This document shows positions 2,812 to 36,656 of a stretch of DNA of 41,482 nt, in pieces. Made by a program: the position numbers and the translations under genes. Numbering within the stretch: the stretch's first letter is position 1; each line of letters starts with the position of its first letter. The stretch lies in contig MWDV01000076.1 of NCBI GenBank assembly GCA_002070715.1, forward strand, positions 1 to 41,482, in the 5' to 3' direction. The DNA comes from Verrucomicrobia bacterium ADurb.Bin118 (GTDB lineage Bacteria; Verrucomicrobiota; Verrucomicrobiia; Limisphaerales; MWDV01). The notes under the pieces are model-generated. The model saw only the letters and a program-made list of their open reading frames with translations. It was not told the DNA's origin and searched no databases.

Positions 2812-3093
2812 ATGACCGTGAGTGCGACATCGAAAACGGATGCAGTTTGGTTCACCACCAAAGGCCAGGTCGTCATCCCTGCCTGGTTGCGGAAACAATT
2901 TCGTATTGAGAATGGGACAAAAGCGGTGGTTCAGGCAACGGCGGAGGGCATCCTCCTCAAACCCGTTACCGCGGTGCTGATCAAACGTGGCCGCGGCATT
3001 CTCAAGCGTAAGGCCGGGAACAAACCCTTGACCGAAGAATGGGCCGAACACAAGCAGCGGGAGTGGGAACTGGAGGCGCGCCATGCCCGCTAA
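2812..3093 (+). CDS. VapB/AbrB-family antitoxin
   Basis: A 93-residue protein with the SpoVT/AbrB (MazE-like) swapped-hairpin signature near its N-terminus: VWFTTKGQVVIPAWLRKQF, followed by IENGTKAVVQATAEGILLKP. This fold binds the operator DNA of toxin-antitoxin modules. The C-terminal part (GRGILKRKAGNKPLTEEW) would wrap the partner toxin. Its stop overlaps the PIN-domain gene by 11 bases, typical of antitoxin-toxin coupling. Because the partner toxin is truncated, the antitoxin is now probably an orphan. Length is normal for the family. Confidence 0.82.
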   Translation: MTVSATSKTDAVWFTTKGQVVIPAWLRKQFRIENGTKAVVQATAEGILLKPVTAVLIKRGRGILKRKAGNKPLTEEWAEHKQREWELEARHAR

Positions 3094-3400
3094 GGTGCTG
3101 GATAGCTTTGCGCTCATCGCCTACTTCCGCGACGAGCCGGGCGCGGAAACGATGGAAAACCTGCTCGTGACCGCCGGAAAAAAGGATAACCCGCTCCACA
3201 TGACCGATGTGAATTATGCCGAGGTCAAATACGCCATTATGAAGCAGGACGGCATGGATGCCTGGGCGGAAGCGGCGAAGATTCTGCAAGGTCTGCCGAT
3301 TGATTTTCATTCCACGAATCGCGCGCTGGCCGACACGGCCGCCGGTTTCAAAGCGCGTTTTAAGATCAGCCTGGCCGACGCTTTCGCCGCCGCGCTGGCG
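3083..3400 (+). pseudogene. VapC-type PIN-domain toxin, truncated by an IS630 remnant
   Basis: The first ~106 residues match PIN-domain ribonucleases: the first acidic residue in VLDSFALIAYFRDEPG, the conserved glutamate in NYAEVKYAIM, and LADAFAAALA with a third acidic residue. VapC toxins cut RNA, often initiator tRNA. Relatives continue with a strand ending in TGD, which supplies the last metal ligand; here the similarity stops at about 3400 and the frame runs on into antisense transposon sequence until 3556. The final catalytic aspartate is therefore missing and the toxin should be dead. No remaining vapC 3' part was found beyond the transposon, so sequence was lost rather than merely interrupted. 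Confidence 0.75.
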
Positions 3401-4064
3401 ACTGATGAAACCGGGCGTTGTCCAGCACGATCACACTGCCCGGCGGCAGCAGGGGCAAGAGCACCTGCGCGAAGTAAGCGTCCACCACTTCGGTATTGCA
3501 ACTGCCTTGCAACACCCGCGGGGCGACTAGTTTGTTATTCCGTGAAGCCGCAATGACACTGGTGCGTTCCCGTCGTTTGCCCGCCACCGCCTCGTAAATC
3601 CGCTCCCCCCTTGGGGCGCGGCCGTATTCCCGATACAGCCGGTGATCCACGCCGCACTCATCGAGGTAATAAACGGGCCGGCCGGCCAGCGTTTCGAGTT
3701 CGCGCCGGAAGAGCCAGCGTTGCACCTCGTTGCGCTCGCGGTATTTTATGAGTTTTTTTAGCGTGAAGCCCAGTTGTCGCAGGCGCACCCACACGGCGTT
3801 ATGGCTGACGCCAAAGATCGATTGGAGTTCTAGGAGGGTGGCGTCCGGATGCTTTTTGACGTGCGCCGAAAGTTCTTCGGGGTCGAGCTTCCGCCAAGAC
3901 CCCCAACTGGTTTTGGGCGGCAGCGCGCCCTGTTGGGCGGCCGCCAGATACCGGTAAACGGAACTGCGGGCCAGATCAAACCGCCGGGCGGCCTCGGCCT
4001 TGGTGCCGCCGTTTTGGACGAACTGAACCACCCGCTTCCGCAAATCCAACGCATAGGCTTTCAT
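3401..4064 (-). pseudogene. IS630-family transposase, C-terminally truncated
   Basis: The N-terminus (MKAYALDLRKRVVQFVQ, then KAEAARRFDLARSSVYRYL) is the paired helix-turn-helix of IS630 transposases, followed by a second DNA-binding unit (SIFGVSHNAVWVRLRQLGF). The catalytic core shows the first aspartate (YYLDECGVDHR) and the second (VIVLDNARFH). The third acidic residue, normally in a YSPDLNPIE-like stretch about 35 residues later, is absent because the gene ends at the vapC joint. Remaining length is about 221 residues against roughly 300-350 usual. It cannot catalyse transposition. Confidence 0.8.
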
Positions 4065-4512: not shown

Positions 4513-5352
4513 TCAGAATTCGTATGCGCGGAACCGCTGTTGACCCGTTGATGACAGTGAGATCGTGTGGTAAATCCGTCGGCCATCATCGTCTATTCCA
4601 CCGGACGTGCCCGCTCGTAGCGCCCGACAACTTCCAATCCGGGTTCGCTTGATGCTGTCTTTGGTGTGGACGTGCCCGCAGAGAAGTAAGTCGGCTTGGC
4701 AACTCTTGATCCATGCGCGCACTTCTTCAGGGGGCGGGGTTGTGAAATTTTGTTCAATCAACCAGTCTCCCTCGAATTCCTCACGCCAAGGGCTGTGATG
4801 CATCACGATGATTTTGTGCCGGACATGCGAATTCCGCGCCAGATGCCGGCGTACCGCACTCCGATGATGACTCGGCAGTTCTCCCTCCGCCCATCGTATC
4901 GGCAGGTATTGTTCATTGCGCGTTGTATCCAGTGCCACCAACAGGACATCCTTTCCGAGTCTTTTTGCCACGGGGAACGGTTCCCCGGCAACCAGCTGCG
5001 TAGCGGTTTTGCTGGAAAACGTTGGGCGGATGACTTTCAGCAATTTTTCAAAGTTTGCCGTTGGACGTCGCCAAAACGGCGGTATGGGTATGGGTCGAGT
5101 CGACAATGGAAAAATGTCGTGATTGCCGGGAATGATCGTCAAGCGTGTTGCCTCAGTGAGTTTTCGCTTTCGCAGAGCTTGGAAAAATGCTGTGTAAACA
5201 TCCATTTGCGCGCAGTCCACGATGTCACCCGTGATGACAATGTGATCAACCCCACGCTCCACTGCGTCGTCAATCATGGCGAGGCTGCAATGGAAATCAT
5301 CATCAACCGCGCACAGGTGAAAATCGGAAAAATGGGCGATGTGGTATTTCAT
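4513..5352 (-). CDS. calcineurin-like metallophosphoesterase (third gene of GTPase operon)
   Basis: A 279-residue protein with the full set of metallophosphoesterase motifs: HFSDFHL (D-x-H), VITGDIVD (GDxxD), IIPGNHDIF (GNHD), VMHHSPW and LLCGHVHTKD (GHxH). These hold two metal ions and cleave phosphomono- or phosphodiesters; substrates in the family range from cyclic nucleotides to nucleic acids, so the substrate here is unknown. The ATG at 5352 is preferred over an upstream in-frame start at 5397: GGAG lies six bases before it, and the later start leaves a 19-base gap after the membrane-protein gene instead of an overlap. No signal peptide is seen, so it is probably cytoplasmic. Last gene of the operon. 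Base composition is more AT-rich than the flanking housekeeping genes. Confidence 0.85.
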   Translation of the reverse strand: MKYHIAHFSDFHLCAVDDDFHCSLAMIDDAVERGVDHIVITGDIVDCAQMDVYTAFFQALRKRKLTEATRLTIIPGNHDIFPLSTRPIPIPPFWRRPTANFEKLLKVIRPTFSSKTATQLVAGEPFPVAKRLGKDVLLVALDTTRNEQYLPIRWAEGELPSHHRSAVRRHLARNSHVRHKIIVMHHSPWREEFEGDWLIEQNFTTPPPEEVRAWIKSCQADLLLCGHVHTKDSIKRTRIGSCRALRAGTSGGIDDDGRRIYHTISLSSTGQQRFRAYEF

Positions 5353-5371
5353 AAACCGCTCCGGCACTATT

Positions 5372-6331
5372 TTATTTCGAGCCTGAATTGGCTGCATTGC
5401 CGCCCGCGGACCGATTCAGAATTTTATCGAGAATTGTTTTCATCGCGCTTGGCAGCTTTTTGCCAGACTCCTCCACAACGGGAATCAATGCTTTCATCGC
5501 TTCCTTGTTAGCCTCTTTTCGGACTTCACTTCTGCTCAACTCGTTTCCAGCATTTAACAGATATTTGCGGGTAACGAACCCAACCCGGAGCGTGAACAAG
5601 GCATTGATAGTGCCGTCGAACAACGAATTGACAATAAGGCCAGCTCCTAGGGCTGCGGCAACTCCTCCAAAGCCGAGATAGCCGAAAATGCTGCCGGCAT
5701 CCAAGTCGTCAAGCTCATTCGCGATGAGCGAAGCGAGAAAAATCTGGGCATAAATCTTAATGAGCATCGGCAACGGCGGGCGATAGCCAAAGTGTTTCAC
5801 CAACAAACGCACGAGACGGAAGTTCGCAACCAAAACCGCAATGGCGTCCAAACGCCCGTTCTGAGAGATGGCGGTGGTAATGAAGACCAGAACAGCATGC
5901 TCGTGGATAATCTTGGCGGTCGATTTTTTCTGAGCTTTAATCGCCGCGGCCAATGGTTCGCGAATATCACTGCCGAGGCCCATCGCACCAGCCAGCTCCT
6001 CACGCTGTTCGCGTGGTAGAACGTCGGCATCAATCAACTGCCGGGCGACTTTTTTAAGCTTTTCGTGGTCAAGGTTGTTGTTGCCTACCGCCACGTCTTC
6101 AAGGGCGAGAACAGGCTTTGCCAAAGCTCCGGCGAACGGGGCGATGACGAACCAGATGAAGACGGTCATCACAAAGCCGTAGAATCCCCACTCCAGCCAT
6201 GGGGTGACCCCTCCCAGCTTGGCGCCGATCACGAGAATGTTGCCGATGAAGGTGACAAAAAGAAAGATAGCTACCGCCAAGCTGAGCGGAATCCAAAACA
6301 GCCAGAGCGAACGTTTAGTTGGTTTTGTCAT
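5372..6331 (-). CDS. DUF697/YcjF-like multispanning membrane protein
   Basis: A 319-residue membrane protein. Two long hydrophobic segments open it (about residues 9-38 and 46-70); a hydrophilic stretch follows, then a second hydrophobic half with AVLVFITTAISQNGRLDAI, FRLVRLLVKHFGYRPPLP, IKIYAQIFLASLIANELD and a glycine-rich FGYLGFGGVAAALGAG. The second half resembles DUF697, the domain of E. coli YcjF, which is encoded next to the GTPase-like YcjX in the phage-shock regulon. The C-terminus is charged and helical. It starts 12 bases after the GTPase stop and is followed by the phosphoesterase, so all three are probably one transcript. A reasonable guess is that it anchors the GTPase at the inner membrane. 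The family link is by eye and moderate. Confidence 0.7.
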   Translation of the reverse strand: MTKPTKRSLWLFWIPLSLAVAIFLFVTFIGNILVIGAKLGGVTPWLEWGFYGFVMTVFIWFVIAPFAGALAKPVLALEDVAVGNNNLDHEKLKKVARQLIDADVLPREQREELAGAMGLGSDIREPLAAAIKAQKKSTAKIIHEHAVLVFITTAISQNGRLDAIAVLVANFRLVRLLVKHFGYRPPLPMLIKIYAQIFLASLIANELDDLDAGSIFGYLGFGGVAAALGAGLIVNSLFDGTINALFTLRVGFVTRKYLLNAGNELSRSEVRKEANKEAMKALIPVVEESGKKLPSAMKTILDKILNRSAGGNAANSGSK

Positions 6332-6343
6332 GGTAACGGATAT

Positions 6344-8317
6344 TTATTTCATGGACTCGCGGGCTTTGGCCAATGGCAAAGCCAAGTTCCGAAGTGACTC
6401 ATCCATTTGACTGATCAGATTTTCCGTCGCGGTGGCGGTTTCCTCTTCGGGTTTCGCAGTGGCATTAAAATCAGCCATCAAGCGTTGTAGATGTGCTTGA
6501 AAATGTTTTCTCCTCTTTTCGCAGTAAGTCGAAAAGTGGTTGATAATTACTTGGTTTATCCAATTCCCCTTGCGTTTCTCAATTTGCTGCCGCCAGGCTT
6601 TGGCCGCTGACTCGATATGCTTGGCCAGTGTGGAGCCGTCGTAGTCTTTCCCCCCAAACCAATTTTTCCAACCCCTTTCAGGTAGTTTATCATGCGTGAA
6701 CGACTCGCTCTCTATTCTCGGCAAGTCTTCCGCTGATGGCGCGACGGGAGCGGGCAATTGCGATAACTCCAACTCGCCCAAGAATTCATTGACGCGAGTG
6801 ATGGCATCGCTTTCTGCCGACTTGCAGTATTGATTGGCTACTTTCACATACGACGGAAGCTGCAGTGGTTTGGCAAAGTGCTTAATGTCACCTTCAGCAC
6901 CTAACCTGATCGCCGTATTATCCAGTTCACCGTTTACTTCTTTCCCTGTTCGCTTACGGTCGTGACGCTCGCGGAGTCTGGCGACTTCATTTTCCAAACT
7001 GTCCAACCACGGTTTTGCTGCGGCCTCCGCGATTGCGCAAATCTCCCCTCTGACTGCGGTTTCCCAATCGCTGTGGTAGCTCACAGCATCAAGCAACGCC
7101 TGCGCTTCCCTCAACTTGTCGCGCACCTTTTTATGCGCCTCCCGAAGCTGCTTTATTTGTCCAATACTTATTTTCAATTGTTTCTCGGCTTCGCCGAATC
7201 TCTGCCTCAAATATTTCAAACAGTTGTGCTCTTGAATCAAGGCGCGTTCCGCGTGTAAGACATCTGCCAGGTCAGACTCGAATTTCGGAAATTTGGATTG
7301 CGACAACCATTCATCCTGATTTTCGTTCTTGGCATCCCAAGCCAACCCCACGTTCAATCCTAAAACAGTACGTGGCTCTTCGTTTAGCAACTTGATGACT
7401 CGCTGCCTTCCTTCTTCCAGTTGGTCGGCCTCAGCTTTTTTCCGTTTTTCCTCTGGCTGCCAGTGTCGCGCATCAAAAATATTTTGGATCAGCCAAATTG
7501 GCGGCTTTGTGCTTTGTGCAACGATTTCCTTCAGGAAATCGTGTGCCTCCTTGTTCAGTGCCGCCACGGAACTTTGCACAAAGAGGAAAAATTCGGCCCG
7601 GTTCATGACCCACTCGTGAATCGGATCGGTGCGCCAGTTGCTTCGGCTGCCATCCAGCCCCGGCATGTCCACGATGGCTACGCCGTGCCTGAGCAAATGG
7701 TCGCCCTTACACCGAATTACTGTGAGAAGTGGCTCGGTAGTGAGGTCTTGCGTTAAGGTTTCTTCCAACCTCACCGCATTCAAGTGGAGCGTGTCTACTC
7801 GGATTCGTCCTTGGAACTCGTCTTTGCTTCGTATGCCACGCAGATAATCCGCTACCGCGTCAAAGCTTTCGCGGACTTTTGCCAATTTCTGCGTTTCATC
7901 GTCTGTCGCCACGCCTGTTGCATCGTTTTTCCGTAATCGTCGCTGGCTTAAGAAATGATTTATCTCAGGATCGGTTGAGAAATACTGGTCAATGCCCGGT
8001 TCCTCAGCGGAAATTATCAGAGAAGGTCGCCGTGTCGTTTCTTTTCCAAAGCCGGTGGGGCTGACGTATTCGCTCGCCAAGGCGTTGGTCAAAGTGGATT
8101 TGCCAGCCTTGAGCGGTCCGAAAATCACCACAAAGAAAAGCTTGGAATCGAACTGTCTGCGAGCGCGATCAATGTTACGCATCACTAGTTCCAATCTCGT
8201 ATTACGGAGGCTCTGGGTAAAATCAAGCTTCCGCCAGCTTTCGATAACTGCATCCAATTCTTTTAGTAAAATCTCGGTTTGCGGTGTTCTTAGCTTCGTA
8301 GCTTCTGGATTTTGCAT
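6344..8317 (-). CDS. dynamin-like large GTPase
   Basis: A 657-residue GTPase of the bacterial dynamin type. The P-loop is GPLKAGKST (residues 67-75), a likely switch I threonine lies in FGKETTRRP, the G3 motif is DMPGLDG (217-223), and QNIFD (278-282) stands at the G4 place instead of the usual NKxD. A long charged helical region with coiled-coil character (about 375-450 and again near the end) would form the stalk. No transmembrane segment is seen; the DUF697 protein next in the operon may provide membrane contact. The ATG at 8317 is chosen because AAAGGAA precedes it; a TTG start at 8356 would add 13 residues. First gene of a three-gene operon whose start abuts an IS3 remnant. It is AT-richer than the chromosome around it, suggesting transfer. 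Other P-loop families are less likely given the size and the paired membrane protein. Confidence 0.82.
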   Translation of the reverse strand: MQNPEATKLRTPQTEILLKELDAVIESWRKLDFTQSLRNTRLELVMRNIDRARRQFDSKLFFVVIFGPLKAGKSTLTNALASEYVSPTGFGKETTRRPSLIISAEEPGIDQYFSTDPEINHFLSQRRLRKNDATGVATDDETQKLAKVRESFDAVADYLRGIRSKDEFQGRIRVDTLHLNAVRLEETLTQDLTTEPLLTVIRCKGDHLLRHGVAIVDMPGLDGSRSNWRTDPIHEWVMNRAEFFLFVQSSVAALNKEAHDFLKEIVAQSTKPPIWLIQNIFDARHWQPEEKRKKAEADQLEEGRQRVIKLLNEEPRTVLGLNVGLAWDAKNENQDEWLSQSKFPKFESDLADVLHAERALIQEHNCLKYLRQRFGEAEKQLKISIGQIKQLREAHKKVRDKLREAQALLDAVSYHSDWETAVRGEICAIAEAAAKPWLDSLENEVARLRERHDRKRTGKEVNGELDNTAIRLGAEGDIKHFAKPLQLPSYVKVANQYCKSAESDAITRVNEFLGELELSQLPAPVAPSAEDLPRIESESFTHDKLPERGWKNWFGGKDYDGSTLAKHIESAAKAWRQQIEKRKGNWINQVIINHFSTYCEKRRKHFQAHLQRLMADFNATAKPEEETATATENLISQMDESLRNLALPLAKARESMK

Positions 8318-8399
8318 TTTAATTCCTTTCGCAGGGCGTTGACGAAGTTTATCCAAGGTAAAAAAGATGGTGGTCCGGAAAACAGTGGCGGTTTAACTG

Positions 8400-9225: not shown

Positions 9226-9623
9226 ACTCGCGTCTTTCGTTTCAGCGGGTAAGCGGTCACAAATCGCAGCGACCGCTCGCTGCGTTCAATTAAACCATAC
9301 GGAACGAACTCTGGCAATTACACCGTCGGGCATCGTCATATCGCCTTCCACCACGGAGCGGACACCGAGCGGCGTGGTTTCCTCTTTCGTGGTTTCGTGG
9401 TCGCGAGCGTGCTGGCGCAACGCCGCCGCCAGTTTTTCCAGTCCCCGACATCAAACCCGTGGTGGGCGAAGAAGCACGCCTTGCTTTTGCCGGACCGATG
9501 TTCCGGATTTAGCAAGTAGAGAACGATTTTTGTCCTCGGCACTTCGGCTTCACTGGCGAGCGGCAGTTTCAATTGGAGGTTCTCAATTTGCCCCGTCAGT
9601 TCAACGATGCAACCATCTGACAA
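9222..9623 (-). pseudogene. DUF6883-family protein, two frameshifts
   Basis: Starting at a TTG (9623), the frame encodes KLPLASEAEVPRTKIVLYLL, NPEHRSGKSKACFF, then HHGFDVGDW, the usual N-terminal half of DUF6883 proteins. Just after DW (about 9438) one base is missing; in the shifted frame the protein continues as EKLAAALRQHARDHETTKEE, TPLGVRSVVEGDMTMPDGV and RVRSVWFN, then stops. A second shift restores ERSERSLRFVTAYPLKRK, the family's C-terminus, ending at a TGA overlapping the DUF4926 start. Function of the family is unknown; the pair is often found near toxin-antitoxin-like loci. Decay or sequencing error are both possible, but the neighbouring IS-broken partner argues for decay. Confidence 0.65.
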
Positions 9624-35121: not shown

Positions 35122-35826
35122 TTATGAGAGGGCTCCCCGCCTTCGGAAGCGTCCGCCCAGAAGCAAAACCCCGCCCATCAAGAGACGGCAAATGGCCGGT
35201 TCGGGAATCGGGATGATCGTCGGCGTGCCCACGTAAATCCCGCCGCCGGCCACCACCAACGCCGCGTCCAGCATTTCAATCACCCCCTGATGGTTCACAA
35301 ACTCCCCCCAGCCAAATACCGGATCGTTGTAGATTCCCGGGGGCGCGCCATTGGTGTGGCCCGTGTAAAATCCCAGGAAGAACGGCACCTCCGGATCAAA
35401 TCCGTAGTAATTCCCGAAGTCCAACTCCGGGTAAGCGCCCGTCTGGATCGCAGACAAACTGAGGGGATCATTCGGTGATACAAAAAACACGCGGATTCCC
35501 TCGTCCCGAGTCGCCGGAGCGAAAGAGAATATCATGTAGTAAGGACTCCCGGGCGTCATGAGCTGGGGACGCAGAATGAATCCCGTGTAATCGCCAGGGG
35601 TGGGACTCCGCATGACGTGGACGACGGCGCTGAGGCCCGCCGTTGAATAGGTGACGCCGTCGGGGAGGAGGTAGCCTTGGGCCGGGGCCAAGGCGGGGGC
35701 GGCGAGCGCGGCCGCCAGAACCAGTGGCGCCAAAAGGTTGCGCTGCTGGAATAGGCGAATAACCCGGCCGCGGCGGACAGCGGCTCGCCGCAGTGTCTTG
35801 TACGATTTTATATTTTTTTGAACCAC
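35122..35826 (-). CDS. PEP-CTERM sorted exported protein
   Basis: Secreted protein ending in a PEP-CTERM tripartite signal: IPIPEPAICRLL, a hydrophobic stretch (MGGVLLLGG) and a basic tail (RFRRRGALS), which an exosortase would cleave. A hydrophobic export signal is seen near the N-terminus (LLAPLVLAAALAAPALA, then PAQG). The mature part (~160 residues) has no recognised domain. The start is uncertain: the frame opens with GTG at 35826, but a -10-like TATAAA (35812-35807, minus strand) lies inside its first codons and the Mrr stop overlaps it, so translation probably begins further in, for example at a TTG at 35733. No exosortase gene is in the window. Confidence 0.72.
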   Translation of the reverse strand: MVQKNIKSYKTLRRAAVRRGRVIRLFQQRNLLAPLVLAAALAAPALAPAQGYLLPDGVTYSTAGLSAVVHVMRSPTPGDYTGFILRPQLMTPGSPYYMIFSFAPATRDEGIRVFFVSPNDPLSLSAIQTGAYPELDFGNYYGFDPEVPFFLGFYTGHTNGAPPGIYNDPVFGWGEFVNHQGVIEMLDAALVVAGGGIYVGTPTIIPIPEPAICRLLMGGVLLLGGRFRRRGALS

Positions 35827-36656
35827 TCGTGATTAACCGAGATTTCTTCAACCGTTTTTACACGCACCTCAATGCCCAAGCGCAAATCCTTTAACATGAT
35901 GACCAGTTCATCGCCATCAATCATGTCCAACGGAGGGGCTCCATCCCGCTGTGCTTCCAATCGAGCATCGCGGGTAAAGGTGCCGGTGGTGATGAACAGT
36001 CCCTTGTCGGCCCGACCAACCATTGCTCCGCGGAAATCTCGAATAGCGCTTGCCGATATACTGTCACGATAGCGCTTACACTGAAAAATCACATGAAACG
36101 AAAGAATACCACCAAGCTTCACAACGCCTTTGCCGTCAATGCCGCCATCACCAGAACGACCGGTCACCTCAACTTGGATAAATCCAGATTCGCGAAGTAA
36201 TCTCTGGCAGAGGCGCTCAAAAGCTTCCGGGGCCATTTGTTTGAGGGCTTCCAGAGCTTCGTCTTGCCAGCGAAGTTCCCTGACCATTTCCGGCGTTTCC
36301 TGCCCCGCTTCTGCTTCAGCGGCCTCCTCTCTGGCAACACGATCTTCCTGCTGAACAGCACGAGTGACCTCTGCTGGAATTACTTGCTCGGTTGCGATGC
36401 CTCGATCGGAAAGCGCCCAGACCCCCCGATCCGAGTTCTCCAGCAGGCCATATCTCTTCAAATATGTTCGGGCCCAAGCCAAGTTGTAACTGAACTTGGT
36501 GCGATTCCCCCTGTGGATTTGATTGATGTCTTCTTCCGAAAGGTTGAGGATACGGGATACTGATTCCTCCAACTCGGGGATTGATGCTGAACCACCCAAC
36601 TCCCGCAATGCCTGCAGTAAGGGGTTAAAGAGTTCGTCGAATTTTGGTGCGGCCAT
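35808..36656 (-). CDS. mrr: Mrr-type restriction endonuclease-like protein
   Basis: A 282-residue protein with the two Mrr domains. The N-terminal winged helix (about 6-95, FDELFNPLLQALRELGGSAS and YLKRYGLLENSDRGVW) binds DNA, and the C-terminal PD-(D/E)xK nuclease (about 145-260) contains LLRESGFIQVEVTGRSGDGG then IDGKGVVKLGG and FQCKRYRDSISASAIRDFRG, giving the D ... QxK catalytic pattern. Mrr enzymes cut methylated DNA from outside, so it is a candidate defence gene. No methylase accompanies it, as expected for type IV. It is AT-richer than neighbouring sdh and fum genes and lies between two direct repeats, consistent with transfer. A DNA-repair nuclease role cannot be excluded. Confidence 0.85.
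   Translation of the reverse strand: MAAPKFDELFNPLLQALRELGGSASIPELEESVSRILNLSEEDINQIHRGNRTKFSYNLAWARTYLKRYGLLENSDRGVWALSDRGIATEQVIPAEVTRAVQQEDRVAREEAAEAEAGQETPEMVRELRWQDEALEALKQMAPEAFERLCQRLLRESGFIQVEVTGRSGDGGIDGKGVVKLGGILSFHVIFQCKRYRDSISASAIRDFRGAMVGRADKGLFITTGTFTRDARLEAQRDGAPPLDMIDGDELVIMLKDLRLGIEVRVKTVEEISVNHEWFKKI

Follow-up and report, generated by a model that had tools for sequence, protein, structure and literature searches.

The gene for a dynamin-like GTPase (DLP) and the gene for a DUF697-type membrane protein directly behind it form a conserved pair that recurs across bacterial genomes. We read this pair, with a probability of roughly 0.55, as a two-gene dynamin module that moves horizontally and acts at the inner membrane, which it would survey or repair as the DLP counterpart of YcjX-YcjF; a defence role for it is plausible. 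The metallophosphoesterase gene that stands behind the pair in the genome analysed here makes up a trio with it, and that trio is a local arrangement, not a conserved system.

The three-gene segment and its products

The window, a stretch of 41,482 nucleotides from Verrucomicrobia bacterium ADurb.Bin118, carries three intact open reading frames on its minus strand, separated by 12 and 19 bp, as an earlier sequence-only reading had described them. With the insertion-sequence remnants on either side, the features are as follows.

3366..4064, minus strand: IS630-family transposase remnant on one flank (HTH_Tnp_IS630 5e-19, DDE_3 partial)
4513..5352, minus strand: calcineurin-like metallophosphoesterase, 279 amino acids, metal-binding motifs complete (Metallophos 4.1e-18)
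5372..6331, minus strand: DUF697-type membrane partner, 319 amino acids, two strong N-terminal transmembrane helices followed by a helical DUF697 region
6344..8317, minus strand: dynamin-like GTPase (DLP), 657 amino acids, G domain at about residues 60-330 followed by a long helical stalk, no hydrophobic segment
8461..9225, minus strand: IS3-family integrase-core remnant on the other flank (rve_3 1.5e-16, rve 8.4e-11)

For the DLP, a start at 8317, with AAAGGAA just upstream, is favoured over an in-frame TTG at 8356. A consensus scan for promoters and terminators around the three genes gave no signal beyond chance, so that the case for their co-transcription rests on spacing. The segment is AT-richer than its surroundings, as had been remarked: its GC content is 50-53.5% and its GC3 55-61%, whereas trpE, argS and rnc, taken as core genes, have 62-63% and 71-77%, respectively. 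The island setting noted at the same time is also borne out, with toxin-antitoxin pairs (MazE-like/PIN and Gp49/HTH) lying farther out than the IS630 and IS3 remnants that flank the three genes. The open reading frames of the PIN toxin and the IS630 transposase overlap convergently (window 3083-4064) and both profile matches are cut off where the two frames meet; the toxin gene may have been damaged when the IS630 element inserted. A truncated DUF6883 domain (9336-9623, minus strand) adjoins the IS3 remnant, and a Mrr-type restriction endonuclease (Mrr_N and Mrr_cat; 35808-36656, minus strand) is found within another lower-GC patch of the window.

The DLP matches Pfam Dynamin_N at 7.5e-16 (59.1 bits; cut-off 27) and keeps motifs G1 to G3 (P-loop GPLKAGKST, ETT and DMPG), which places it in the dynamin superfamily and agrees with the intact P-loop and G3 reported before. 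Its fourth motif does read QNIFD rather than NKxD, and this oddity proved to be a family trait, not a peculiarity of the window copy: all 24 members of the DLP family share GxxK[AS]GKS, DxPG and QS[ST], and their G4 consists of an Asn and then a Trp (QN(x6)W-like) without a conserved Asp, so that a preference for guanine nucleotides is putative throughout the family. In the structure model, helices spanning residues 343-515 and 561-656, mostly with high pLDDT, form a stalk behind the G domain. Fold searches matched the Campylobacter DLP pair, IniA, BDLP and LeoA with low TM-scores, the G domain having been modelled poorly, from four sequences.

Assignment of the membrane partner to DUF697 is sub-threshold by 2.3 bits in Pfam (1.3e-5, 25.4 bits; cut-off 27.7), and its score against TIGR01620 is 16.7 bits (cut-off 160); relatives in the same slot behind a DLP gene carry the DUF697 annotation. 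Its structure model was too poor for use. Hydropathy analysis (Kyte-Doolittle 19-mers) placed two strong helices near the N terminus, with peaks of 2.6 and 2.2, and weaker ones inside the DUF697 region, whereas no 19-mer of the window DLP past its G domain exceeded 0.6. The DUF697-type protein is therefore probably the membrane anchor of the DLP. The idea that solo DLPs carry a membrane segment of their own and paired ones do not was rejected, a strongly hydrophobic segment past the G domain being found in neither group.

Conservation and spread of the DLP-DUF697 pair

The DLP and DUF697 genes were adjacent and in the same order at all 11 pair loci, in genome samples that come from two phyla and include loci in metagenome-assembled genomes (MAGs) that may be chimeric. 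The carriers are Verrucomicrobia-like genomes, one Desulfobacteraceae MAG and a Treponema plasmid. An independent test of the linkage was provided by a profile of DUF697 only (five rows), as this search took no input from the DLP. Across 388 genomes of the phylum, including the window, it returned seven matches above 73 bits, every one of them directly behind a DLP gene on the same strand. For these two genes, the recurrence in other genomes that the sequence-only reading called for was thus found.

The survey of the order added the pairs of genomes G910 and G033. Relative to the window, the DLP and DUF697 proteins are 57% and 66% identical, respectively, in genome G910, 58% and 54% in G033 (Verrucomicrobiales) and 56% and 55% in the Desulfobacteraceae MAG, which was retrieved by scanning genome contigs with the DLP; a genome-contig scan with DUF697 alone retrieved no relative. 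The DLP of G033 is broken by a frameshift (L005 3502-3539), through assembly error or decay. When the two proteins are compared by their identity matrices, r is 0.97 over the 11 pairs and 0.84 over the eight divergent ones (permutation P 0.0004), a correlation that is in part the common descent of neighbouring genes. Conserved adjacency and co-divergence support the earlier suggestion that the GTPase acts through a DUF697 anchor.

In the DLP tree, which includes one row (L101) in the wrong frame, the Desulfobacteraceae DLP nests in the close clade with full support (100/99). This position suggests that the pair was transferred between phyla, contamination of the MAG being the alternative. On the same tree, a single origin of the DUF697 pairing was rejected, as five label changes are needed, at least three of them forced by well-supported branches. 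DLPs of the family stand without DUF697 at 13 loci, so the partner is not obligatory across the family. Among phages and viral contigs, neither DLP nor DUF697 was found.

YcjX-YcjF and the genes behind the pair

YcjX-YcjF, made up of a DUF463 GTPase and a DUF697 membrane protein, is linked to the phage-shock and heat-shock responses. The window pair resembles it in having a GTPase gene directly ahead of a gene for a DUF697-type membrane protein, but the window GTPase combines Dynamin_N with a long stalk and has no Pfam match to DUF463, a domain that a surveyed YcjX matches at 1e-114, and the pair is accordingly not YcjX-YcjF itself. Expression of ycjX and ycjF rises upon phiX174 infection (PMC8125068). 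The analogy between the two, drawn in the sequence-only reading, gained support from our surveys, in which YcjX-DUF697 pairs also occur: the weaker DUF697 matches in Desulfobacterota are either solitary or immediately preceded by a gene for a YcjX-like GTPase, DUF463 being confirmed in genome G750. Moreover, the gene for a membrane protein, here called protein X, can follow the pair of either GTPase type. It stands behind DUF697 in the DLP operon of G392 and in the YcjX operon of G750 (31% identity, E 1e-57), and for that reason the dynamin-like and YcjX GTPases seem to be alternative components of a single design built around DUF697, seen at one locus of each kind. In G750 the YcjX gene starts 52 bp past a gene for a Hhe-type helicase-nuclease (1529 bits, PADLOC), and the Hhe-type, YcjX, DUF697 and protein X genes lie on one strand (L064 2-8639 with L122 11788-18001), possibly as a defence operon. 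On an Azospirillum plasmid (L121 7668-9798), a relative of protein X is encoded directly behind the gene for an HNH endonuclease, and no GTPase gene accompanies them. The suspicion that protein X is related to what lies upstream of the DLP in L041 and L039 found no support (hhalign probabilities of 1-2%).

The gene behind DUF697 varies among the pair loci. On plasmid pTS2 of Treponema saccharophilum it encodes an HNH endonuclease (order dynamin, DUF697, HNH), in G910 a TerB-DnaJ protein 183 bp away and in G107 an uncharacterised membrane protein, with a protein kinase gene upstream of the pair. In G392, protein X ends a one-strand run of genes for a sigma-70-like factor, a caspase (Peptidase_C14), DLP, DUF697 and protein X (L043 4832-11256). 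At other pair loci no co-oriented gene stands close behind DUF697. Ahead of the pair in L041 (2637-9498) are genes of the PP2C phosphatase and vWA types, and ahead of the pair in L038 (936-7169) is a Ser/Thr kinase gene. Two DLPs without DUF697 (L101 3224-9230 and L103 131-6184) close a cassette of beta-clamp-like, PD-(D/E)XK nuclease and DUF932 genes, which resembles a piece of an integrated element. A broader reading of this variety makes DUF697 the shared hub of a wider set of membrane conflict modules that are mobile. In these, a dynamin-like GTPase could be swapped for YcjX, and the phosphoesterase, HNH nuclease, caspase, protein X and nearby Hhe helicase-nuclease could likewise replace one another as accessory or effector gene; we consider this reading possible but doubtful.

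The sequence-only reading itself proposed a three-gene membrane-surveillance or anti-phage module. Taken as an anti-phage system, it would have the GTPase sense infection at the membrane via DUF697, with the phosphoesterase as the effector or clearing a nucleotide signal. The short gaps on a single strand fit such a system, as do the island with its toxin-antitoxin genes and insertion-sequence remnants, the HNH nuclease or caspase adjoining other pairs, and the YcjX-DUF697-X cassette directly behind a Hhe defence gene. The phosphoesterase scores above the PF00149 cut-off (66.9 bits), and its motifs DFH, GD, GNHD, MHH and GHVH supply the DxH, GD, GNH, H and GHxH ligands. Its best NCBIfam matches include the antiphage families DS9_1 (38.3 bits against a cut-off of 420) and DS8 (29.4 against 790), scores so far below the equivalog cut-offs that membership of either family was rejected. 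At the other ten pair loci, some of them on contigs that end within a few kb, no gene for the phosphoesterase was found. Nor did a sample of about 500 genomes, in which some were drawn twice, or the plasmids, phages and viral contigs yield a full-length or close homologue, and the best partial matches covering much of the protein were 26-28% identical. Neither the pair nor the phosphoesterase is present in the phages and viral contigs searched, and a recognised defence neighbour is missing at most pair loci. We therefore reject a conserved trio and regard the phosphoesterase as a co-oriented passenger or accessory gene rather than a conserved member of the module. Lack of conserved co-occurrence, which the sequence-only reading had named as evidence against its own proposal, thus applies to the trio and not to the pair, and an anti-phage system of all three genes is unlikely.

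Other GTPase systems and the proposed role of the pair

The window DLP shares a G domain and helical stalk with the bacterial dynamins (Campylobacter DLP1/DLP2, BDLP, IniA, DynA and SynDLP), among which it has its best fold neighbours, but differs from them in being a single DLP without a membrane segment, in having a separate DUF697 partner and in its QN(x6)W-like G4 without conserved Asp. LeoA/LeoBC, listed as Eleos in defence catalogues, belongs to the same superfamily; Leo systems use several DLP genes and are not known to include DUF697. The window DLP matches PADLOC LeoBC at 2.9e-11, but no second DLP was found in the window or elsewhere in the genome (about 81% complete); with tandem DLP genes missing, Eleos/LeoABC membership was rejected. 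In the GAP1/DO-GTPase conflict systems, too, a GTPase is accompanied by membrane components and by effector genes that vary, and the main text describing them makes no mention of dynamin (PMC7159879). No GAP1, GASH or DO-GTPase gene adjoins the pair, and membership was rejected since these defining partners are missing. The concern that the trio might be an already named system was thus answered in the negative for YcjX-YcjF, Eleos and DS8/DS9. A full-text literature search for dynamin together with DUF697, covering mainly openly available papers, returned no paper. Bacterial dynamins as a kind are already known; what looks new here is that the dynamin has a DUF697-type membrane protein as a separate partner.

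A constitutive dynamin for membrane remodelling or lipid trafficking, unrelated to stress or phage and with a phosphoesterase acting on lipid or nucleotide phosphate, would account for the several Akkermansia-type DLP relatives that stand alone adjoining core genes. The paired form, however, is patchy (3 of 293 genomes in the survey of the order), crosses phyla and lies here in an AT-rich island, which is unlike the usual behaviour of core functions and makes such a dynamin distinctly improbable. That the segment is a decaying island fragment without present function, as the insertion-sequence remnants on both flanks and the frameshifted DLP copy in G033 might suggest, is hardly credible given three intact frames with full motif sets and a pair 55-66% identical to intact relatives.

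For the two-gene membrane module that we prefer, the simplest mechanism, by analogy with known systems, is that DUF697 would recruit the DLP to the inner membrane, and that the DLP, assembling there under the drive of a nucleotide, would stabilise or reshape damaged membrane. The DUF697-type protein would sit in the inner membrane via its N-terminal helix pair and recruit the soluble GTPase, which itself lacks a membrane segment. Membrane stress, caused by phage lysis proteins, envelope damage or foreign pore formers, would be the trigger. The GTPase would then assemble on its DUF697 anchor in a nucleotide-dependent manner and stabilise, remodel or signal from the membrane under damage, in line with proposals for DynA and YcjX-YcjF. 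DynA delays phage lysis (PMC8844932). The pair would move horizontally and acquire different downstream accessory genes; in the window, the phosphoesterase gene is probably transcribed together with the pair, and its product, which may hydrolyse phosphates of nucleotides or lipids, would not be essential to the module.

We know of no partners or triggers for most bacterial dynamins. A conserved, horizontally moving DLP-DUF697 pair provides a concrete partner candidate for a dynamin, and it ties the obscure YcjX-YcjF phage-shock pair to the dynamins. Should the changing third genes prove to be effectors, the pair would form the basis of a modular membrane-surveillance immune platform; otherwise, it would still represent a new way of placing a dynamin at the inner membrane.
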